Assembly (NCBI RefSeq): GCF_945952365.1
Contig: NZ_CAMFHX010000005.1
Coordinates: 70,832-115,587 of the forward strand
Source: an uncultured Cetobacterium sp.
GTDB lineage: Bacteria; Fusobacteriota; Fusobacteriia; Fusobacteriales; Fusobacteriaceae
Reading direction: 5' to 3'
Length of the DNA stretch: 44,756 nt
Made by a program: the position numbers and the translations under genes. This document shows, in pieces, positions 15,316-36,896 of this stretch. Below the pieces are notes generated by a model. It was given only the letters and a program-made list of their open reading frames with translations, made no database searches and was not told the origin of the DNA. Position 1 is the stretch's first letter; the number at the start of each line of letters is the position of its first letter.

Positions 15316-15475
15316 AGAAGAAAACTATAATATGTACCGTTCGTTATGCGGGAATTTAAGCCTTCTGAGAGTTATATACACTAAAGTAGATAAAGTGATT
15401 TATTGAAATAGAATTCTATGAACAAGGAATTGAACCTATAAAACTTTATAGAGTTTTATAGGTTTATGATAACGG
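15316..15475 (+). ncRNA. Right end of the IS element, likely omega-RNA scaffold
   Basis: About 160 non-coding nt between the tnpB stop and the right boundary, where IS605/IS607 elements encode the guide RNA of TnpB. It includes GTTCGTTATGCGGGAATTTAAG-like sequence near 15338-15360, resembling TnpB right ends, and a strong terminal hairpin. By the known rule the guide would be the flank just after 15475, that is ATAACTTATGAAAC..., the start of selD. Exact ends of the RNA are not visible. Confidence 0.5.
15433..15464 (+). repeat. Perfect 13-bp hairpin at the IS right end
   Basis: AACCTATAAAACT (15433-15445), 6-nt loop, AGTTTTATAGGTT (15452-15464). There is no T-run, so it is unlikely to be a terminator; it probably is part of the guide RNA or recombination end. 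Confidence 0.75.
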
Positions 15476-25626: not shown

Positions 25627-28600
25627 CTACATATCCTTCAATATCTCTAATAAAATCGACTTTTTCTCTTCCTCTTTAAGAGCCATACCCATAGATTTAA
25701 TAGTTGCTTCTAACTTCGTCTTCAACATCTTTCCAATCGCTGTATGCTCTTTCATGATCTCCAATACAACTCTCTCTCCATTTGATATAATTTGAACAGA
25801 GTTTTCAGAATCAACATTCTCAACTTTTTCCCTTACAGTTAAAAACTCTTTCATCTTATTTTCAAAATCAGTTATATCCTCTAAGCTCGACCAATTTTCA
25901 TAACTAAATCCTTTTATTTTAGCAGTAATATCTAGTATGAATCTTCTATCTCCAGTATATCTATATTTTTTTAACCATGTTTTAATACCGTTATCTAAAA
26001 TGCTATCCTCTTTTTGCCAACTTTCTAAAGCTTCTTTTAAGTCAATCTCTCCTTTTAACTGGTCTATTATTAAGAGTTTTAGTTGCTCTTCAATTTTTAA
26101 CTTTTCATCCTCTAAATAAGTCATCTCAGAGTTTACTAACGAGATAACTTCATCATAACTTTTAGCTCTAGCTCTTTTAGGTAACTCTTCAAATAAAAAC
26201 TTATATGGATCTTTATCTTGGAATAAACCTTTAAATACTTTTGAAAGTAGTTTACAGTTATCTAAAGAAACTCTGTTTATCAATCTACTTAAAGAGTAGA
26301 AGTAACTCTTTAATCCTTCAACTATACCGTTCTCTATATCTAAACTATCTACAAAGTAGATTCCTAAACTTTTCATCAACTCATTTAAATATCTTTCCTC
26401 TTCTTCACTTTTCTCAACATAAGTCAGATAGTACTTCTCAGGATTTTTTTCGATTTTTTCAATCAGATCTCCACTTAAATTTTCTTTTTGTTTATTTTGA
26501 TTTTCAATTATTAAAAGACTATTTTTATTTTTTATTAAAAGTACACCTAAAAACAAAGTAAAAATACCACTTCTTAATCCATAAGCTCTTTTATCACTTG
26601 TATAATCTAAATATAGCTCTTCTAATTGGCACTCTTCATTTTGTAATCTATTTAAAATTTCATCACTTAGCTCCTGCCATTCATCTTTAAGTATTACCTC
26701 TGTTTCACCAATAGATATAATTTTGCTTAAAACAGTTCTTGCTACTGAATTTATTGCTCCTGTTTCTAGGTAAAAACTGTCTTCTAATAATATTTTATCT
26801 CCTTCTAACAACATTTGAAGAAGTGTCGTCCTAACCTTTTTCATTGGAGTACTTATTTTATCTTTATTTAACAACTCATAGTTTATAGGAATATAATTCT
26901 TAAATTTTTCATTTAAATAATAATATGTCACTTGAAGTAAATCTTTTTCTATTTGAGTTTTTCCTAAGTACGTTATCTCTCTCTCATCTTTAGAGAAATA
27001 CCTATTCAGTTCCTCTTTTAAAGTTTGAATCAACTCCCCTTTATATAAACTATACTCCTCTAAAATAGCCTTATTGTTATAATTTTTCTCCAATAAAACT
27101 AAACATTCAATGGCTTCTAACTCTTTTAAAATTCCATCTATTTTTAAATTAGAATTTTTTATATTTGATACAATAATAATATCTTTTAATTTTAAAGAGG
27201 TCTTTATAGAATCATAATCTAAAGCTTTTGATATATTTGTTAAATAAACAACCCTACCATCTACTTTATCTTTCAACTTATCTAAATAACCTATGTTTGA
27301 ACAATCTAAATATATTTGCTGGAAATATCTTGTTATATCCATTTCAAAATTGTATTTAACAGGATAATAGAAATCGAGCTCTATAAATTTATTCAATGAT
27401 TCAGTTAGATTTAGACTGTGTAATTTGTTTATTACATACTCTTTAATCTCCTTTTGAATATTTATATCGCTATCCTCTACAATCTTGTAATGTCTCTTAT
27501 TTCTTTTAAAACTTATTATATTCTCATTTTCTAAATCTTTTACAATTTTATCTAACTCAATATCATCAATATTTAAAGATAACTTTAAAATCTCCTTTGT
27601 TGGCGGGATTTCAATTGGTCTATTGTATATCTGTAACATACCCAAAGTTTTCAGGAATTTTATATGATTAGAATCTTTTACTAAGTTTAAAGCTTTTTTA
27701 GTATTAAAATAGCTTTTATACTCTAAACTTTCATGATTTAAAAACTTAAAGTTTTCTTCAAAATAATCGTATATTCTATCTAGCCCCACTATAAAATCAT
27801 CTTTTAATACACTCTCTAAACCTTTAACATCTCCAGAACTTAGAAAAGCAAACATAGTTCTTTCATTTTGGGCAATCTTTTGAGATAACTCCGGTAATAT
27901 ATATGCTGTTAAATAGTTTAAAGGATAAAAATTTTTTACTGTTTTATCAACAGTTTCAGTTAACAAATTAGATTCAGTAAGATTTTTAATATAGTTATTA
28001 AACTGTTCTATATTTTGGTTATAAAACGCTTCAAACCCATCTTTTTTATAAACTACTTGTGACAATATACTCAAAGAAGTAACTTTATCATAAGTCATCT
28101 GCTCTTTATGAAATCTTCCACTTACCTTTTCCCATTCAAATATATTATCTTCTCTATTCAATTTATTTGTATACTGGAAAATATCTTTATGAGTTATTAA
28201 AAATAGATATGACAAAGCTTCAGAGTTACAGTATTCTGCCATATCCTGTATCTCTTTTACATCAACTTTGTTTATATTTGATTCCAAATATCTTCCAAAC
28301 TCATCAAAAACATAGATAACACCTTTATATGATGTCGTTTCAATAACTTTCTCCTCAAAATCTTTCAGTAAGTCTACAATTTGGAAATTAGATTCATAGT
28401 TTACAAATTCTTCTCCATAAAAAATCTCTTTATATAACTCTTTAAATATTTTTATAGCATTAGAGTTATTATTTTGAAGCTGAAGCTCTATTTTTTCTAA
28501 GTTTATATCTCTTTTTAATAAAGCTTCTTCAAATTTAAAAATTATATCTGAATAGTTCTTTTTCCAAGATTCAATTTTATCTAAAATTATTTTACTTTCC

Positions 28601-29028
28601 AGATTTAAACTTATATTCAAATCTTCCTTTTTTATAACTTCTAGTATCCCGTGTAGCACTGATTTTTCATAGTTAGAGTATCTATCTTTTGCAAATACTA
28701 CTAAATATTTTTGTTCATTAAGCTTTGAATATATCTCTTTTATTGGGAACTTTTCCTCAGCTCTATTTAAAAATATATCTATCTTACTTTTATTTTCTAC
28801 TGATAAAAGATTTAGTAATACCGAAAGAAAATATGACTTTCCACTTCCATATGCTCCTGATAAAATATATGATCCATTTTTTTTATTCAAAACTCCTTTT
28901 GTAAGTTTTGCTAAAAGCTTTATATTTTTCTCTGTAGGAATATATGAATTAATTTTCTCGTTATCTTTGTAATCTCTCTCAATATTTACTGAAAACCCTA
29001 CTTTTGTAATCTCTATTACTTTATCCAT
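25627..29028 (-). CDS. Large P-loop ATPase of the sulfur-linked defence module (BrxC/PglY-like in outline)
   Basis: An 1133-residue protein with a Walker A site GAYGSGKSYF near 58-67 and a Walker B-like VIYVFDEFGRY near 237. The rest is long, charged and mostly helical with no catalytic motif I recognise. Size, early P-loop and DEFG box resemble BREX BrxC/PglY and Dnd-associated ATPases such as DptH only in outline. The ATG at 29028 overlaps the stop of the DUF4007 gene by 1 nt. Last gene of the five-gene operon. Likely the motor or signal-gating part of the system. No PglZ, methylase or Lon-like BrxL is nearby. Confidence 0.8.
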   Translation of the reverse strand: MDKVIEITKVGFSVNIERDYKDNEKINSYIPTEKNIKLLAKLTKGVLNKKNGSYILSGAYGSGKSYFLSVLLNLLSVENKSKIDIFLNRAEEKFPIKEIYSKLNEQKYLVVFAKDRYSNYEKSVLHGILEVIKKEDLNISLNLESKIILDKIESWKKNYSDIIFKFEEALLKRDINLEKIELQLQNNNSNAIKIFKELYKEIFYGEEFVNYESNFQIVDLLKDFEEKVIETTSYKGVIYVFDEFGRYLESNINKVDVKEIQDMAEYCNSEALSYLFLITHKDIFQYTNKLNREDNIFEWEKVSGRFHKEQMTYDKVTSLSILSQVVYKKDGFEAFYNQNIEQFNNYIKNLTESNLLTETVDKTVKNFYPLNYLTAYILPELSQKIAQNERTMFAFLSSGDVKGLESVLKDDFIVGLDRIYDYFEENFKFLNHESLEYKSYFNTKKALNLVKDSNHIKFLKTLGMLQIYNRPIEIPPTKEILKLSLNIDDIELDKIVKDLENENIISFKRNKRHYKIVEDSDINIQKEIKEYVINKLHSLNLTESLNKFIELDFYYPVKYNFEMDITRYFQQIYLDCSNIGYLDKLKDKVDGRVVYLTNISKALDYDSIKTSLKLKDIIIVSNIKNSNLKIDGILKELEAIECLVLLEKNYNNKAILEEYSLYKGELIQTLKEELNRYFSKDEREITYLGKTQIEKDLLQVTYYYLNEKFKNYIPINYELLNKDKISTPMKKVRTTLLQMLLEGDKILLEDSFYLETGAINSVARTVLSKIISIGETEVILKDEWQELSDEILNRLQNEECQLEELYLDYTSDKRAYGLRSGIFTLFLGVLLIKNKNSLLIIENQNKQKENLSGDLIEKIEKNPEKYYLTYVEKSEEEERYLNELMKSLGIYFVDSLDIENGIVEGLKSYFYSLSRLINRVSLDNCKLLSKVFKGLFQDKDPYKFLFEELPKRARAKSYDEVISLVNSEMTYLEDEKLKIEEQLKLLIIDQLKGEIDLKEALESWQKEDSILDNGIKTWLKKYRYTGDRRFILDITAKIKGFSYENWSSLEDITDFENKMKEFLTVREKVENVDSENSVQIISNGERVVLEIMKEHTAIGKMLKTKLEATIKSMGMALKEEEKKSILLEILKDM

Positions 29029-29915
29029 CAAACTAACTCACTTTCTAGTATTTTTTTTACGACTTCTTTCTCTGAATATCTCTTTGTATCTATAGTTATA
29101 TTTTGTAATCCTGCTGCTCTATCTACAGATAACTCATTTTGGAACTCTAACTCCTGTATAGTTTTCTCAAAATTAAGATAACTCATCTTCACTATTTTAT
29201 TTACATACTCGTAAGCTTCTTTTATTGTTATTTGATTTACAATTCCCATCTTTTTAGATTTTCTATAAAGTAAATAGTATATCATGTAATCAGAAATATC
29301 TTTTCTTTCTATATTTTGAAATTTAAACTCACCATTAATCTCTTTTAAATAATTTAGTCTTACAAATGGAGAAACTATATTTTCTTCTGGATTAACACTC
29401 TCTTTAGAATCTTTATAATATGTTTTTATAAAAACATTTATTGTATCTAAAACCATTCTGCTTGAAAACTTACTTCCATTCTCTATATAGTAAAGCTCTA
29501 TACTCTTTTCCAAACTCTCTTTTGTAAATGTAGCACCTTCAGGTAATGAAAAAGCTTTCTCCCAAACTAGAGCTTTCTCTTTTTCTTTCAAAAAAATATT
29601 TGAATGTAAAATCCATAAACTGTTATTATTTTGTAAGTATGGATCTAATTCAAAAACGACTTTCATACTTTCACTTAACTCTATACTTTTAGCTTTTTTT
29701 TCAAGAATACCTAAAAAATCAGCCCAAAACTTTATAGATTCTACCATCTTACTTCCTACACCCAAGATATCTATTGCATTTATTAAGTTAGCTTTAGAGA
29801 AAAATGAACTTTCTATTTTTTTATTTACATCTTGTTCAAACACCTTGTAAAATAGTTTATTTATCCAGTTCTCTCTGACATAAAAAGAACTATGACCACT
29901 CATTATAATTTTCAT
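29028..29915 (-). CDS. DUF4007 protein of the sulfur-linked defence module
   Basis: A 295-residue protein opening with MKIIMSGHSSFYVRENWINKLFY, the beginning typical of DUF4007, a family known mainly beside PAPS-reductase-like genes in defence islands. FFSKANLINAIDILGVGSKMVESIKFWADFLGI also fits. No enzyme motif is visible; a helical, winged-helix-like composition suggests a DNA- or protein-binding role. The ATG at 29915 is chosen because AGAGGT is 4-5 nt upstream and the extra 14 codons of the longer frame fall in the previous gene. It begins 2 nt after the PAPS-reductase-like gene. Confidence 0.8.
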   Translation of the reverse strand: MKIIMSGHSSFYVRENWINKLFYKVFEQDVNKKIESSFFSKANLINAIDILGVGSKMVESIKFWADFLGILEKKAKSIELSESMKVVFELDPYLQNNNSLWILHSNIFLKEKEKALVWEKAFSLPEGATFTKESLEKSIELYYIENGSKFSSRMVLDTINVFIKTYYKDSKESVNPEENIVSPFVRLNYLKEINGEFKFQNIERKDISDYMIYYLLYRKSKKMGIVNQITIKEAYEYVNKIVKMSYLNFEKTIQELEFQNELSVDRAAGLQNITIDTKRYSEKEVVKKILESELV

Positions 29916-29917
29916 TT

Positions 29918-31561
29918 CTACCTCTTTTTTATTTTTAATGCTGATGCTATTAAACATCCCGAATCAAATTTATCTATACATTTTAAGCAGTTTACACACT
30001 TATTTTCATCTACTATGTATTTTCCGTTGCTAACGTATATAGCTCCTGTCGGACAAGCCGAGTTACACCCTTGACAGTAAAGACAACTATTAAATTTATT
30101 AAACTGCTTTTGAATTTTATTGAATATATATTTATCATCAGTTTTCATGATTGTAACTTTAACTTCCGTTCCCTCAATTCTATAAGATAACTTGAAGATT
30201 GGAGTGTTGCCTCTATCCATTAAAATTATTTCAACCGCTTTGTTTTTTTCAAATATCTTCATAGTTCCAAACGGCTTGAAAAGTTGAATAAAATCTTCGT
30301 TTACAGATTTATTTAATACAAACGTTTTTGAATTTTTCTCATTGATACACTCTTTAGCTTCTACAATTATCTCTGTACTTTTTTCTAATCCATCTCCTCC
30401 TTGTCTTGCTTTCCATTTACCATCTTTAACATAATCCTCATAATCTAACTTCCCTATTCTTTTAGAAAAATCAATTAAAAATGAATACCATTTATCATAT
30501 TCCTCTGAATTATATATTGATGAAAGAAGTTCAGACCATGAACCGTTATTTGGACATACCCAACATCCTACTCTTGCAAATCCTTGTCTATATGAATCAT
30601 TAAAATCTAATTCTTCTGTTAGCATATATAACCAAACATCTAAGTCACACCAATCTATAATTGGAGAAGCTACCATCTGTTTTAATATTTTTGGACTTTG
30701 AGATACTTTTTTATATTTAGATCTAGACGCTGACTCTCCTCTTCTAAGACCTAAAAATGTTATTATATTTTCATCAAAATTTGCAAGTGTTGTTCCCATT
30801 GGTCCAGTTTTAAATATTGAGCAGCACCAGCTTTTAACTCTACTTGGTGGTCCAATCTCTTCACACATTTCGAAGAAATTATTCTCTTCATTTCTCTCTT
30901 CGAAAAATGGTGTAAATGGATTTTCCTCTTTAAACCTCTCTACATATTCATATGACTTAGGCAGTTCTAATGTTGTATCTCCAAATATGTGTAAAATACT
31001 TTGATTATTTAAAGCCAATCTCACCAAATGAGAAACAACTGTAGAATCTTTTCCACCAGAGAAAGATACTAGCATCATTCTATTTTTATATTTTTCTGCA
31101 TTTTCAACGATAAAAGGAATTGCTCCTATGAACTCTCCCTCTTCGTCTCTATTCTCACTTTTTACCAGTATATTAAAACGACTACTGTTTGCTTTTATAA
31201 ATTTATCGAAGCAATCTCTTTCAACTTCTAAATGCTCCTCTGTTATTGAAAACTTCATCACTTCTTTCCTTAAATTTTCAATTTCTGATTGAGTCATTTT
31301 TTTAAATTTTGATGTTGCTATTAAACCAACCATCTCACCGTTAACTATATATCTATTCTGTTTTGTTGCCCAAACTGATTTTTTTAAGAATTTATCATCT
31401 AATCTATCTGGAAACAAGTTCATTAATAACCATTTTTCTTGTAAAAATACTGGTCTTAAATCTTTTGCGATCTCTTTTAATGATGATGTCACACCCTCTT
31501 CTAAAATTACTGGAACATTATCTATTTCATTCCAACAAATTTTAACTTCTTTTTTTTCCAT
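29918..31561 (-). CDS. PAPS-reductase/DndC-like PP-loop protein with C-terminal ferredoxin domain
   Basis: A 547-residue protein. The middle part has the PP-loop SFSGGKDSTVV near 164, which binds ATP and adenylates a substrate, as in PAPS reductase and DndC. Cysteines in WCCSIFKTGP and GCWVCPNNG resemble the Fe-S ligands of DndC-type enzymes. The C-terminus is a 2[4Fe-4S] ferredoxin domain: CLYCQGCNSACP near 492-503 and CVNCLKCIDKFDSGC near 523-537. Dnd family members place sulfur in the DNA backbone with sulfur from a cysteine desulfurase, and such a desulfurase is encoded in this operon. DNA modification is inferred, not shown. GAGG start; spacing 17 nt after the DUF262 gene. Confidence 0.85.
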   Translation of the reverse strand: MEKKEVKICWNEIDNVPVILEEGVTSSLKEIAKDLRPVFLQEKWLLMNLFPDRLDDKFLKKSVWATKQNRYIVNGEMVGLIATSKFKKMTQSEIENLRKEVMKFSITEEHLEVERDCFDKFIKANSSRFNILVKSENRDEEGEFIGAIPFIVENAEKYKNRMMLVSFSGGKDSTVVSHLVRLALNNQSILHIFGDTTLELPKSYEYVERFKEENPFTPFFEERNEENNFFEMCEEIGPPSRVKSWCCSIFKTGPMGTTLANFDENIITFLGLRRGESASRSKYKKVSQSPKILKQMVASPIIDWCDLDVWLYMLTEELDFNDSYRQGFARVGCWVCPNNGSWSELLSSIYNSEEYDKWYSFLIDFSKRIGKLDYEDYVKDGKWKARQGGDGLEKSTEIIVEAKECINEKNSKTFVLNKSVNEDFIQLFKPFGTMKIFEKNKAVEIILMDRGNTPIFKLSYRIEGTEVKVTIMKTDDKYIFNKIQKQFNKFNSCLYCQGCNSACPTGAIYVSNGKYIVDENKCVNCLKCIDKFDSGCLIASALKIKKR

Positions 31562-31578
31562 TTTTACATCCTCATTTT

Positions 31579-33675
31579 CTATCTTTCACTTAAATAGTGA
31601 AGCTCTCTTAACAATGTATCTTTTATTATATTAAATCTATTTTCTAAAACTCTTCTATAGTATGCATTTTGTTGTTCATTTTCCTTCTGCAACAAATCTT
31701 TATTTATCATCTGACCTATTCTAGATATATCTTGTACATCTTGCATATACTTTTCAAACCCCATATCTCTAATTTTCCTATTTGCTTCTTTGCTTATAAG
31801 AGTTCTATTTAAAACACTATTTAAAATATGATTTTTATCGTTTCTTATTTTAGAACTCAGCTCTCCATATTTAGTGCCTGTTCCTAAAGGTATTAAATGA
31901 TGATCTTCCAGTTCTACTGATGCTTCTGTTATCTCAAATGCTTTAAGTTTTTTCGAATGATTCTCTGGTAATAAATCAAATGGTTCTAAACTTAAAATAT
32001 AGTATAATAAATTCTTACTAACTTGAGATGGTGTTTTAGAATCATTTAATAATGTTTCTAAATCTGAGTACTCCTCTACATTTAATACCTTCCCTATATT
32101 TTCACAAACTAATTCTTTAACTTTCAAATCTTCTAAATCCTCTTGAATAATCCATCGGTAAATAGTTTTTAAATCATCTACGGTTCTTATATTTTGACGC
32201 TCTCTGTATCTTCCTATAAATATTGATGTCCAGTACCAATATTCAACTTTATCTAATACTTTTTTATTGTTCCAATTTTTATCTTCAGAAAATATATAAG
32301 CCATAGGTAAAACCATTAATTCAAATGAGAAGTTACCAAATTTCGTTATTCCTAATCTAGTATTAACAAACGCTAATGCTCTCAACAATGAAATAACTGT
32401 TTTTTCAGTTAAAGAATTTATATCTTCTGATGAAATTTCAAAAATTTTATCTCTTTTTATATGTTCTAATTTTAACTTCAACGGATCTTTTACATGAGAA
32501 AAAATTGATAATAAGTTTAAATATTGATTTTTAAATCTCTTATTCAACTCCTCTTGTCCTTCAATCAAACCAAAGTTTATTCCATTCCAACTTCTTTCTT
32601 TAAAATCTTGTGGTAACTCAATTCCTAACTCTACAATTCTTTTTATTCTTTGAGTTAAAGATTCTAATTTAGAATCTTTTGCTGCTTTAGCTACAATTAA
32701 ATCATAATTATCTAAAGGTGTCCCACCTTTATTTATTGTTTCGAATATGGCTATTCCTCTACTTATCTCATTTTTTTCTATTTCAATTATCGAAACCTCT
32801 TGTTCTACTAATTTATCTAAGAAATTTATAATTTTAGTTTTCCATTTCATTGACAATTCATACTTTAAACTATTTTTTCTTGTTTCAAATTCATCTATTA
32901 ATTCTTCTTCATCTACTTCAGAAGAAAAATCCTTAAAATAACATTTTATTTTCTCTATTTTTTTTATGTTTTCGTACTCTTCTATCTCATCTATTATTTT
33001 ATCTGCTCTTTTATTTGCAATCTTTTCCACAACTTTATCCTGAAGTTTATTACTCTCATTTAATCCAAATAGTGGAATAAGATTTTGATCAGAACATAAA
33101 TTTGCAAACTCGTTTATCTTTCCTGAATCAGTTGTTTTTTCAAACTGAAATTTTGGATGGTACCAGCAATTTATATTTTTTGTTTTATGAATTTTATACT
33201 CTTGAATAAAATCTATAATTTCACTTGGTGTATATTTTCTTAAACTACCATGCTCAAAATCTAAATTATTATAACCAAATACATCCTCTGTTTCATCATC
33301 TGAAGTTGAAACTTTTAAAAACCATCTATTCTTTATTTTTCCATATAAATCTGAGTAACTATTCTCCCATTCACCTTTAAATAAATCAACAAACATAGCT
33401 TTTAAAGTTGACATTCTCTGCTGACCATCTAAAAGATACATGCACTCCTCTTTAGCACATTCAACTTCATTTGAATAACATAGCTTTCTATAATTAAAAT
33501 CATTACAGCTTCCTTTTAACAAAAGAATGCTGCTTATAGGTAACTCCACTAAAAATGTCGCAAGTAACTCTTTTTGCTGCTTTGTATCCCATACAAAATC
33601 TCTTTGGAAATTTGGAAGTATTATTCTTCCTTCATCTTCGTCTTCAAATATCTCTTTTAATCTCTTTACCTTCAT
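31579..33675 (-). CDS. DUF262 protein with C-terminal HNH-like motif (SspE/GmrSD-like)
   Basis: A 698-residue protein. The N-terminal domain is DUF262 (ParB/Srx-like NTPase fold): ILPNFQRDFVW near 20-29 and LDGQQRMSTL near 80-90. The C-terminus contains DHHLIPLGTGTKYG near 588-601 followed by N-rich NDKNHILNSVLNRTLIS, which looks like the His-Asn HNH site of the DUF1524 nucleases. DUF262-DUF1524 architecture is that of SspE, the phosphorothioate-sensing nickase, and of GmrSD. It is the probable restriction or effector arm of the module. GAGAGGA start, 19 nt after the desulfurase gene. Confidence 0.82.
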   Translation of the reverse strand: MKVKRLKEIFEDEDEGRIILPNFQRDFVWDTKQQKELLATFLVELPISSILLLKGSCNDFNYRKLCYSNEVECAKEECMYLLDGQQRMSTLKAMFVDLFKGEWENSYSDLYGKIKNRWFLKVSTSDDETEDVFGYNNLDFEHGSLRKYTPSEIIDFIQEYKIHKTKNINCWYHPKFQFEKTTDSGKINEFANLCSDQNLIPLFGLNESNKLQDKVVEKIANKRADKIIDEIEEYENIKKIEKIKCYFKDFSSEVDEEELIDEFETRKNSLKYELSMKWKTKIINFLDKLVEQEVSIIEIEKNEISRGIAIFETINKGGTPLDNYDLIVAKAAKDSKLESLTQRIKRIVELGIELPQDFKERSWNGINFGLIEGQEELNKRFKNQYLNLLSIFSHVKDPLKLKLEHIKRDKIFEISSEDINSLTEKTVISLLRALAFVNTRLGITKFGNFSFELMVLPMAYIFSEDKNWNNKKVLDKVEYWYWTSIFIGRYRERQNIRTVDDLKTIYRWIIQEDLEDLKVKELVCENIGKVLNVEEYSDLETLLNDSKTPSQVSKNLLYYILSLEPFDLLPENHSKKLKAFEITEASVELEDHHLIPLGTGTKYGELSSKIRNDKNHILNSVLNRTLISKEANRKIRDMGFEKYMQDVQDISRIGQMINKDLLQKENEQQNAYYRRVLENRFNIIKDTLLRELHYLSER

Positions 33676-33694
33676 TTTTTATCCTCTCTATGAA

Positions 33695-34822
33695 TTAAAA
33701 TATTTTATTTAATGTTTCTTTTAAGCCTTCTAAATCTTGATTACTATTAAAATATCCAACTGAGAATCTAAGTGTTCCTCCATCCTGAGTTCCTATATGA
33801 TGATGAGCAAGTGGTGCACAGTGCATCCCTCTTCTCGTTATAATCTCGTTGTCATTCATAATCTCTTCTAACTCTTGAGGTGAGTAATCAAACCCAGTTA
33901 TTGATAATACTCCAATATTTTTCTCTTTTTCTGAGTGTATTTTTATATCATATGAATACTCCTCTAAAAGTTCATATAACTTTTTAAAGTTTTGTTCTTT
34001 TTTTGATTTTATATTTTCTATTCCTACTTCTAACAACTCATCTGTTGCAATTTTAAGTCCAATCATTCCTAATATATTTGGACTTCCAGCTTCAAACCTC
34101 TCTGGCAGTTCCTCTGGCATCTCTTCATCTTCAGATTTTATTCCTGTTCCTCCATATAGTAGAGGTTTTAAAGAAATTTTTTTATTGTAGATATACCCTC
34201 CTATTCCTGAAGGACCATATAAATTTTTATGACCTGCAAATACTATAAAATCTGCGATTTCAGAAATCTCTGAAAAATCTAAAACACCTCCTGTTTGACT
34301 TGCATCTAAAACTGTAATTGCATCATATTTTTTTCCAGCTTCAAAAATATCAAGAACAGGTAAAATGTTTCCAAAAACATTTGAAGCATGATTAAGTATA
34401 ATTAAATCTGGTTTTTGTGATAAAAATTGTAAATTCATATCCTCTATATCCAATTCAAATTTTTTAAATTTTAAAATTTTCAGCTCTATATTTTTTTCTT
34501 TTGCTACTTTTTTTATAACTCTGTAAACTGAATTATGTTCGAAAGGCGAAATGTAAATTGTTTTTATATTTTCATAATTTAGTCCTAATATTATCTCATT
34601 ACATGAAAAAGTTGCTGAAGAGTTTAATATTACTTCATTTTTTGTTGAAAATATATTTTTGATGTTATTTATTAAATTTTTCTTTATCTCTTTTGCATTC
34701 TTACTTTTATCTGAACTATTTCTAGTAAAATTAATCCCTATCTCTTTGTATAACTCCATTGTTCCATCATATACTCTATTAAACTTTGGATATGTCGTTG
34801 ATGCATTATCATAATAAATCAT
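33695..34822 (-). CDS. Cysteine desulfurase (NifS/IscS superfamily) heading the defence operon
   Basis: A 375-residue PLP enzyme. It opens with MIYYDNASTTYPK, carries the PLP lysine in FAGHKNLYGPSGIGG near 197 and the sulfur-accepting Cys in RRGMHCAPLAHHH near 332. Takes sulfur from cysteine as a persulfide and hands it to an acceptor. A general role in Fe-S or thio-tRNA work would be possible, but its place as first gene of an operon ending in a PP-loop sulfur-transfer protein makes it the likely DndA/SspA equivalent. AAAGGAGT start. Behind a leader with a terminator-like hairpin. Confidence 0.88.
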   Translation of the reverse strand: MIYYDNASTTYPKFNRVYDGTMELYKEIGINFTRNSSDKSKNAKEIKKNLINNIKNIFSTKNEVILNSSATFSCNEIILGLNYENIKTIYISPFEHNSVYRVIKKVAKEKNIELKILKFKKFELDIEDMNLQFLSQKPDLIILNHASNVFGNILPVLDIFEAGKKYDAITVLDASQTGGVLDFSEISEIADFIVFAGHKNLYGPSGIGGYIYNKKISLKPLLYGGTGIKSEDEEMPEELPERFEAGSPNILGMIGLKIATDELLEVGIENIKSKKEQNFKKLYELLEEYSYDIKIHSEKEKNIGVLSITGFDYSPQELEEIMNDNEIITRRGMHCAPLAHHHIGTQDGGTLRFSVGYFNSNQDLEGLKETLNKIF

Positions 34823-35032: not shown

Positions 35033-35067
35033 ATTAAAAAAAAGAGGCTAGAAAAACTCTAACCTCT
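35033..35067 (-). terminator. Terminator after the yhhQ gene
   Basis: 10-bp stem AGAGGTTAGA (35067-35058) / TCTAGCCTCT (35052-35043) with one G-T pair, then a run of Ts on the minus strand. Confidence 0.88.
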
Positions 35068-35073
35068 AAACTA

Positions 35074-35778
35074 TTAACATAATGATTTTTTAGAATCCAT
35101 CTTAGTAGCTAAGTATAGGAACGGTGTATCTAAAGCTGCTACTATCCACTTTAAGATATATGTACTTAAGAATATCTCAAACATAACTGAAACTGGGAAC
35201 ACTCCTATAAATGCAAATGTCGTAAATAAAATGTTATCTACTAACTGACTTATCATTGTACTTCCGTTGTTTCTAATCCATAAATGATTCGGAAACTTCT
35301 CTTTTAATTTTTTATATAGATAGATATCTATATTTTGAGAAATAGCATAAGATACTAATCCAACTATCATAAATCTAGGGAACAATCCAAAAATAGATTT
35401 TAAATTACCAAACGTTTCCACTCCATCAACTTCCGGTGTAAACATAAGAGCAAAATTTATCATTAAAGCTACAACTATATTAGTAAAGAATCCAATCCAT
35501 ATAGCTTTCTTTGCATCCTCTTCTCCATACTTCTCTGAAAGAATATCTGTAACAAGGAAAGCACTCGCGTAAGGAATATTTCCTAAAGAAGCGTGTAGCC
35601 CGAATAACTTAACTAAAATCATAACCTCAACGTTTGCTATAAACATAGATATTGGAATCCAAACAAACAATCCAACTTTACCAAAACACTTATATGCTCC
35701 TAAAACTGTTATAAAACTTACCAATAATTTTATTGCCCATAATACTTCATTTTTTAATAATATATCTGCCATAGTCAT
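35074..35778 (-). CDS. yhhQ: Queuosine-precursor transporter, YhhQ/VUT family
   Basis: A 234-residue integral membrane protein with about six spans. Family marks are the SAFLVTDILSEKYGEEDAKKAI segment near 67-88 and the later NNGSTMISQLVDNILFTTFAFIG segment. Relatives import preQ0, preQ1 or queuine for tRNA modification. It starts 2 nt after the nucleoside hydrolase gene and shares its riboswitch leader. The AAAGGGG site lies in the end of the preceding gene. Confidence 0.9.
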   Translation of the reverse strand: MTMADILLKNEVLWAIKLLVSFITVLGAYKCFGKVGLFVWIPISMFIANVEVMILVKLFGLHASLGNIPYASAFLVTDILSEKYGEEDAKKAIWIGFFTNIVVALMINFALMFTPEVDGVETFGNLKSIFGLFPRFMIVGLVSYAISQNIDIYLYKKLKEKFPNHLWIRNNGSTMISQLVDNILFTTFAFIGVFPVSVMFEIFLSTYILKWIVAALDTPFLYLATKMDSKKSLC

Positions 35779-35780
35779 TT

Positions 35781-36746
35781 TTAATACCCCTTTAACACGA
35801 TTTCTGTATCTTTTATATTTTCTGGAAAAACTCTTTTGAAGAATAGATTAAAGAACTCCTTCTCATCTACCTCAGTGTTTATAAATACATTTGGATTTCT
35901 TCTATAGAAATCACCAATATCTATCAAACTCTGCCCCATAGCAGGTCCATCTTCCACACACTCTAAATGTGTCAAAACTCCCTTACATAACTCTGGTTTT
36001 ATAAAATATGCCACTGCTAAAGGATCGTTTATAACACACCCTAAAGTCCTCTCTTGCATCCAGTGGAAATCTACATAAAATCCTGTTACATCATAGATAA
36101 ACTGTGCTACATCATTTTTCATCTGTCTTAGATACTCTCTATAATTTGGTGTTAAAACTATCTTTCTAGTTACATCTAGAGGTATTAGCTCTATCGCCTT
36201 ATCAACATTTTCAAAAACTACATTTACCGATTGAGGATCAACCCAATAGTTAAACTCTGCCACTTGTGAACAGTTACCATTTGTTCTAAAAGCTCCACCC
36301 ATAGAAACTATTCTCTCAGCTTTTTTCAAAATATCTTTTTCCCTCTCCACAGCCTTTGCTAAATTTGTCAACGGACCTAAAGCTATAATCGATACATCTT
36401 CACTATTTTTTAAGGTTTGAATTAAATAATCCACAGCCCCTAACTTTATAGTTTCTTCTGGAATTTCAATCTCAGGTAAAACTTCACCTAAGCCATCCTC
36501 TCCATGTGTATCCTGAGCTGTAACAAGCTCTCTTTTCAACAACTTATTATCTCCTAAATAGATTGGAATATCCTCTCTATTCATTAGTTTTAGAACTTTA
36601 TAGGCGTTTACTCCTCCAAGTTCTACTGGAACATTTCCAGCACAAATCGTAATTCCAATAACATCCAATTCTGGTGATTTTAATGCTAAAATCAGTGCCA
36701 ACGAATCATCAATTCCTGGATCACAATCAATAATTACTTTTTTCAT
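35781..36746 (-). CDS. Nucleoside hydrolase, candidate queuosine hydrolase (QueK-like)
   Basis: A 321-residue enzyme of the IunH family, which splits N-ribosidic bonds. It has the calcium-binding DCDPGIDDSLAL motif at residues 6-17, ALGPLTNLA, and the closing NDPLAVAYF site. Most relatives act on inosine or uridine, but Clostridioides QueK uses the same fold to release queuine from queuosine. Here the next gene is a queuosine-precursor transporter and the leader looks like a preQ1 riboswitch, so queuosine hydrolysis is the best guess. The ATG at 36746 with GGGAGAGG upstream is preferred to an in-frame start eight codons earlier. Confidence 0.85.
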   Translation of the reverse strand: MKKVIIDCDPGIDDSLALILALKSPELDVIGITICAGNVPVELGGVNAYKVLKLMNREDIPIYLGDNKLLKRELVTAQDTHGEDGLGEVLPEIEIPEETIKLGAVDYLIQTLKNSEDVSIIALGPLTNLAKAVEREKDILKKAERIVSMGGAFRTNGNCSQVAEFNYWVDPQSVNVVFENVDKAIELIPLDVTRKIVLTPNYREYLRQMKNDVAQFIYDVTGFYVDFHWMQERTLGCVINDPLAVAYFIKPELCKGVLTHLECVEDGPAMGQSLIDIGDFYRRNPNVFINTEVDEKEFFNLFFKRVFPENIKDTEIVLKGY

Positions 36747-36770
36747 AACCTCTCCCTTTCTGGGACCCAC

Positions 36771-36805
36771 AAAACAAAAAAGGACACGAAAAAAACCGCA
36801 TCCTT
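36771..36805 (-). terminator. Riboswitch terminator in the leader of the queuosine-salvage operon
   Basis: On the minus strand AAGGATGCG (36805-36797) pairs with CGTGTCCTT (36788-36780), 9 bp with two G-T pairs, followed by TTTTTGTTTT. Its first arm starts inside the 3' tail of the aptamer, allowing mutual control. Confidence 0.8.
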
Positions 36806-36842
36806 AGCTGGTTTTTTTTACAGATGGATCTCCCAAACATCT
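36802..36842 (-). promoter_or_regulatory. Candidate class I preQ1 riboswitch
   Basis: Read on the minus strand: stem AGATG (36842-36838) / CATCT (36826-36822), an 11-nt loop TTTGGGAGATC with a C directly before the 3' stem strand (the preQ1-specifying position), then an A-rich tail GTAAAAAAAACC and AGCTAAGGA. The loop TGG can pair with CCA of the tail to make the H-type pseudoknot. The layout and the tail ending CTAAGGA match the B. subtilis preQ1-I aptamer closely. Confidence 0.75.
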
Positions 36843-36867
36843 TGTTTATTAAATTCTTTCGAAAAAA

Positions 36868-36896
36868 ATTATACCATTTTTTTTAGCTTTTTACAA
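36868..36896 (-). promoter_or_regulatory. Promoter of the queuosine-salvage operon
   Basis: Minus strand TTGTAA (36896-36891), 17-bp spacer, TATAAT (36873-36868) with an extended TGG. The -35 box overlaps the stop codon of the upstream hypothetical gene. Confidence 0.8.

Follow-up and report, generated by a model that had tools for sequence, protein, structure and literature searches.

Queuine is a micronutrient contested by gut bacteria and their animal hosts. In C. difficile, the genes queK-qrtT-queL (CD1682-1684) lie behind a preQ1-I riboswitch, with QueK acting as a queuosine hydrolase and QueL as a queuine lyase (PMC11477304, citing Yuan et al. 2019). In salvaging bacteria, queK, queL and yhhQ genes have been placed under preQ1 riboswitches (PMC12519234). 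Two features of these RNAs bear on the present locus: the preQ1 riboswitch of B. subtilis is an OFF switch, in which ligand leaves the terminator free (PMC11625349), and in the type I consensus of class I, bases C8 and U32 build the ceiling of the ligand pocket (PMC8752633).

We analysed a 44,756-nt stretch of DNA (the window) from an uncultured Cetobacterium sp. of the Fusobacteriaceae. Its minus strand carries, between 35043 and 36896 and in this order, a promoter, a pseudoknot aptamer, an intrinsic terminator, a nucleoside hydrolase gene, a YhhQ/QPTR transporter gene and a closing terminator. On the observed gene content, orthology, conserved anatomy and pairing potential, we read the locus as a two-gene queuosine salvage operon under a divergent preQ1-I OFF riboswitch, with a probability of about 0.8. 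The features, in window coordinates, are:

36868..36896, minus strand: sigma-70-type promoter, TTGTAA-17-TATAAT with TG ahead of the -10 box, from the sequence and a promoter search
36807..36842, minus strand: variant preQ1-I-like aptamer, 36 nt
36842-36838 and 36826-36822, minus strand: the two sides of aptamer stem P1
36837-36836, minus strand: aptamer bases U6U7
36835-36833 and 36811-36809, minus strand: aptamer P2, UGG with CCA
36827, minus strand: aptamer specificity C
36821-36812, minus strand: A-rich L3 of the aptamer
36829..36834, minus strand: aptamer-loop GGGAGA, a sequence with which the Shine-Dalgarno stretch GGGAGAGG also begins
36780..36805, minus strand: intrinsic terminator of 10 pairs followed by a U run, from a terminator search
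36789..36797, minus strand: GGUUUUUUU in the terminator loop, candidate antiterminator partner of the aptamer tail AAAAAACC
36759..36770, minus strand: GUGGGUCCCAGA, complementary to the aptamer loop (UUUGGGAGAUCCAU) and, via UCCC, to the Shine-Dalgarno
36749..36756, minus strand: Shine-Dalgarno GGGAGAGG
35781..36746, minus strand: queK-type nucleoside hydrolase, 321 aa, with INDP replacing HDP
35074..35778, minus strand: QPTR (YhhQ/COG1738) queuosine-precursor transporter, 234 aa, of the queK-linked clade
35043..35067, minus strand: end-of-operon terminator

The promoter, which a sequence-only reading of this DNA had already proposed, lies upstream of the aptamer and has standard spacing, with promoter-like matches at the leader no rarer than chance (1 found against 1.2 expected). 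The same reading had described a terminator overlapping the tail of the aptamer. An intrinsic terminator is present in the leader (1 found against 0.0 expected), but its stem begins 3 nt downstream of the CCA, and it is instead the antiterminator pairing that overlaps the tail.

Elsewhere in the window, a RAGATH-18 RNA (Rfam RF03064) was found at 15361-15429 on the plus strand, at 54.5 bits (gathering score 44.9), and a row of genes on the minus strand at 25627-34822 resembles a phosphorothioation-linked or BREX-like defence island. Its members are:

33695-34822, minus strand: SspA/DndA-like cysteine desulfurase
31579-33675, minus strand: GmrSD_N protein
29918-31561, minus strand: BrxP-like PAPS reductase with a ferredoxin domain
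29028-29957, minus strand: DUF4007 protein
25627-29031, minus strand: 1134-aa protein with no Pfam match

The first gene of the operon encodes a nucleoside hydrolase, as had been proposed, matching PF01156 at 287 bits against a cut-off of 34.2. Its best NCBIfam models are RihA, RihC and UriH, all with scores below half of their cut-offs, and the protein therefore falls in none of those subfamilies. A collection scan yielded 27 relatives; the closest named one, from Cetobacterium sp. UBA6069, is 95% identical, and identity to the Clostridium relatives is 57-60%. A tree of 46 hydrolases joins the window protein to 22 relatives, picked by identity and shared motifs before the tree was built, in one clade (support 100/99; recovered in 100% of bootstrap trees). 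RihA, the second hydrolase of the same genome and all distant relatives fall outside it. The Clostridium members of this clade precede an ECF transporter component (PF12822 for L015) and carry RF00522 matches of 49.8-50.7 bits; in L010, L011, L015 and L017 the gene order is queK-qrtT-queL, with a small radical-SAM-like protein following the transporter. Members of the clade also occur in the Psychrilyobacter-type genomes L012, L016, L042 and L043; in L012 and L016 the hydrolase has no adjacent QPTR or QrtT and no recognisable riboswitch, and the next gene resembles a nucleoside diphosphate kinase.

All 23 clade members have an asparagine, within an INDP motif, at the position where ordinary hydrolases have the general-acid histidine of HDP, and all also share EFNYW/EYNYW-type and FHW motifs. 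HDP is found in RihA, in two other solved hydrolases and in the second hydrolase of the own genome, with other residues in some of the comparison proteins. Queuosine has a carbon with a bulky side chain, not a nitrogen, at position 7, and for this reason we infer that a proton donor to N7 would lack a partner in this nucleoside. In ordinary group I hydrolases, the histidine before the last calcium-binding aspartate is the leaving-group proton donor; non-standard hydrolases without this histidine are also known (PMC8910321), so the INDP motif supports the substrate but does not prove it. A further non-standard group was seen among the distant hydrolases L023, L024 and L028, in which isoleucine replaces the catalytic histidine (LID/IID motif).

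The second gene encodes the queuosine-precursor transporter expected from the sequence-only reading, at 186 bits against a cut-off of 50.95 for TIGR00697 ('queuosine precursor transporter'). The substrate of QPTR is not readable from its sequence, and import of queuosine or queuine is our proposal. In many Fusobacteriaceae, queL is followed by a QPTR of its own; the queK-linked QPTRs form a separate clade (100/100) and share about 50% identity with those linked to queL. A queL-QPTR pair occurs alongside a variant-led queK-QPTR in five genomes of the genus (G003, G004, G005, G009 and G010), and the leaders of the queL operons read in G003, G004, G005 and G009 contain a canonical aptamer. As a separate observation, the queL leaders L068, L069, L070, L072, L073 and L099 have two tandem terminator-like hairpins after a canonical type I preQ1 aptamer, and for L068 and L099 RF00522 is not reported above its gathering score.

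The own genome, which is 98.7% complete, has one copy each of TGT (with the standard preQ1-type GGLAVGE motif), QueA, QueH and a QueL orthologue, the last being 55% identical to the Clostridium protein and unlinked to the queK operon. No QueF was found in it, and only weak, mostly partial matches to QueC. With TGT, QueA, QueH and QueL present and neither QueF nor a convincing QueC, this genome depends on salvage. De novo synthesis was rejected on the missing QueF, partial QueC matches of this strength being expected of other ATP-binding enzymes; a queuine-specific TGT as in Chlamydia was likewise rejected, given the standard bacterial GGLAVGE motif and the presence of QueA, QueH and QueL. The window holds the single QPTR of this genome. 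At its own queL (L066 1935-5912, compared with L068), the leader with the canonical aptamer and the QPTR downstream of queL, both kept in close relatives, have been lost: the thrS-queL gap holds only a hairpin and no second riboswitch, and G005 has the whole leader and transporter. Loss of the queL-linked QPTR makes the queK operon the only QPTR source of the genome, and the operon also carries the sole aptamer of this kind found there.

Sequence comparison thus identifies the hydrolase as a probable queuosine hydrolase (QueK), the substrate suggested earlier, and this assignment is well supported by its queK orthology, the clade-wide loss of the base-protonating histidine, its linkage to a queuosine-precursor transporter and a preQ1-type riboswitch, and a genome with salvage and no synthesis route. 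That RihA, RihC and UriH are the best NCBIfam models might instead point to an ordinary purine or pyrimidine nucleoside hydrolase adjoining a YhhQ gene by chance under a preQ1 riboswitch. We consider this very unlikely, given that all of those scores are under half of the model cut-offs, that the queK clade, the transporter and a preQ1-type riboswitch occur together across two phyla, and that the genome has a separate hydrolase of the HDP type.

The aptamer ahead of these genes reads AGAUG-UUUGGGAGAUC-CAUCU-GUAAAAAAAACCAGC, compared with sequences such as AGAUG-UUCGGAAACCUC-CAUCU-AAAAAAAACUAGG or AGAGG-UUCGUAACCAUC-CCUCU-AUAAAAAACUAGG in the canonical leaders of Fusobacteriaceae and Clostridium. 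A preQ1-I-shaped search pattern, composed after the sequence had been inspected, matched once in the window, the expectation from shuffled windows being 0.06. The variant core recurs, at one copy each and with no mismatch where two were allowed, in 9 of 98 Fusobacteriota genomes, which bears out the aptamer and its specificity C as first proposed; a reversed control pattern had no match in the same search of 98 genomes. All nine cores stand ahead of queK-QPTR, and the core is invariant across two genera although the downstream hydrolases are 70-96% identical. Between the variant and its canonical relatives, two P1 pairs have changed on both sides with 100% of cells paired, and the pairing was destroyed when the partner strand was slid as a control. 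P2 (UGG/CCA) is present and invariant, and hence is not probed by covariation.

The variant has the elements of the H-type pseudoknot of preQ1 class I, namely P1, P2, an A-rich L3 and the specificity C. Relative to the type I consensus (PMC8752633, with PMC11625349 as a second source), it retains G5, U6, U7, the specificity C and the U preceding it, an A-rich L3 and the first C of the tail; also present are the UC before the P1 3' strand and the conserved tail C (C31) that characterise type I. The type I ceiling bases C8 and U32 (CUA tail) are absent, with U8 and CCA in the window and in L039, and on this count we do not file the aptamer as type I. Its P2 consists of three Watson-Crick pairs, like that of the B. 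subtilis type II switch, and the variant fits none of the described preQ1-I types (I, II, III) in full. The label 'preQ1-I-like', used in the sequence-only reading, suits an element that keeps the ligand-contact positions yet departs from the consensus of all three types. The scan with RF00522 suggested there found no match, although comparative evidence indicates that the element is real: the leader gave no score even at E up to 10, at which the Rfam scan returned only chance matches to unrelated families, and a search of the whole own genome with RF00522 returned nothing. The model finds three Clostridium leaders (49.8-50.7 bits), and the canonical Fusobacteriaceae leaders L019, L068 and L099 also lie under its gathering score, which makes RF00522 weak in this phylum. 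What is new here is the switch itself, a variant aptamer that the Rfam model misses.

Loss of C8 and U32, which adjoin the second-preQ1 site (PMC8752633), the invariance of the core over two genera with diverging hydrolases, and the coexistence in one genome of a canonical aptamer (queL operon) and a variant one (queK operon) before different enzymes would all suit a change of the aptamer's ligand from preQ1 to queuine (the product of QueK) or queuosine, in which case each salvage operon would answer to what its own enzyme makes. If so, the variant would be a natural preQ1-I aptamer sensing the finished micronutrient base, and one cell would hold two sensors, one for queuine over queK-QPTR and one for preQ1 over queL-QPTR. 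Such a change seems improbable to us. The class I contacts to preQ1 (G5, U6, the specificity C and the final A of L3) remain in place, together with U7, the U that precedes the specificity C and the first C of the tail. Canonical aptamers also lead queK operons without an adjacent queL in G048 and several Clostridium. The loop change, moreover, has another sufficient cause: its GGGAGA is able to pair with UCCC, which accounts for the change simply and without a new ligand. We favour a divergent preQ1-I-like riboswitch that presumably still responds to preQ1.

In the expression platform, the aptamer tail AAAAAACC can pair with GGUUUUUU on the loop side of the terminator, and the nascent RNA to that point is predicted to fold as this antiterminator; GGUUU is common to all nine leaders, whose terminator stems vary. 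The minimum-energy fold predicted for the full leader pairs GUGGGUCCCAGA with the aptamer loop UUUGGGAGAUCCAU, and across leaders this duplex has an energy of -10.5 to -14.3 kcal/mol, reached by 0.6-4% of shuffles. The UCCC of GUGGGUCCCAGA can alternatively cover the Shine-Dalgarno GGGAGAGG, directly upstream of which GGNNCCCA is kept in 9 of 9 leaders with varying inner bases. Modelled opening of the Shine-Dalgarno falls with the aptamer occupied in each of the eight distinct leaders tested. In six of these, no more than 1% of shuffles match the switch; it is weak in the window (delta 0.25, equalled by 5.5% of shuffles), and in L039 it does not stand out from shuffles (34%). As the leaders are related, these p-values are not independent and are not to be multiplied.

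The modelling suggests that transcriptional attenuation is combined with translational control of the operon. The translational layer is the least certain step of the proposed mechanism, and we put it at even odds; the loop-pairing element is transcribed only after the terminator, and a role for it therefore needs read-through RNA to be common. The strength of the terminator, together with a modelled switch that is weak in the window and does not exceed shuffles in L039, would agree with control by transcription termination alone, the UCCC element and the Shine-Dalgarno resemblance being by-products of a G-rich Shine-Dalgarno. This simpler arrangement is quite conceivable, if somewhat short of an even chance, and it is opposed by the retention of GGNNCCCA, despite variation in its inner bases, before the Shine-Dalgarno of every one of the nine leaders and by a loop duplex that beats 96-99% of shuffles in each leader. 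Pairing of the aptamer loop with the platform was also considered as a general rule of canonical leaders and rejected, being found in L068-L070 only (3-5% of shuffles) and not in other queL or Clostridium leaders.

In the mechanism that we propose, with both layers included, QPTR would import queuosine or queuine, QueK would hydrolyse queuosine to queuine, and QueL, encoded elsewhere, would turn queuine into preQ1. TGT would insert preQ1, and TGT, QueA and QueH would together rebuild queuosine in tRNA. Without ligand, the A-rich tail and CC would pair with GGUUUU and block the terminator, and in read-through RNA the aptamer loop would pair with the UCCC element, leaving the Shine-Dalgarno open. 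With ligand, the pseudoknot would lock loop and tail so that the terminator forms, and the freed UCCC would cover the Shine-Dalgarno in transcripts that escape termination.

The family-level annotation of the hydrolase is that of a purine/pyrimidine enzyme, for which 'queuosine hydrolase' would be the better name, and the INDP signature can tell QueK apart from ordinary hydrolases. The standard model misses the variant aptamer, which sits in genomes that may also carry the canonical form and may offer a compact natural test of loop-base recoding with ligand contacts kept, or of a preQ1 sensor becoming a queuine sensor.

Control of queK-qrtT-queL by a preQ1-I riboswitch is already published for C. 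difficile, and the queuosine-hydrolase reading is largely known there; new here are a divergent aptamer with possible two-layer control and a QPTR in place of QrtT. In both systems a preQ1-class leader precedes the genes for QueK and a queuosine-precursor transporter, QueL is present in the genome and preQ1 synthesis is absent, whereas Cetobacterium has QPTR/YhhQ rather than the ECF component QrtT, an unlinked queL and a divergent aptamer invisible to RF00522. Relative to class I type I aptamers (the Carnobacterium antarcticum type, PMC8752633), the variant likewise has a G-C pair closing P1, a UU that follows P1, UC before the P1 3' strand, an A-rich L3 and the tail C; it differs in the replacement of ceiling C8/U32, in a P2 of three Watson-Crick pairs (UGG/CCA) and in its linked terminator, and its loop is one base shorter than in the canonical relatives compared here. 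With the class I type II attenuator of Bacillus subtilis it has in common a Watson-Crick P2, an A-rich L3 used in the antiterminator and a ligand that would favour the terminator, but it has U rather than A before the specificity C and an extra element able to cover the Shine-Dalgarno. Lastly, the hydrolase resembles the group I nucleoside hydrolases (RihA, 3g5i) in its fold family, the calcium-binding DCDPGxDD and the histidine in the beta3-alpha3 loop, and departs from them in having asparagine rather than histidine before the last calcium-binding aspartate, in an identity of 35% and in a score under half of the RihA family cut-off.
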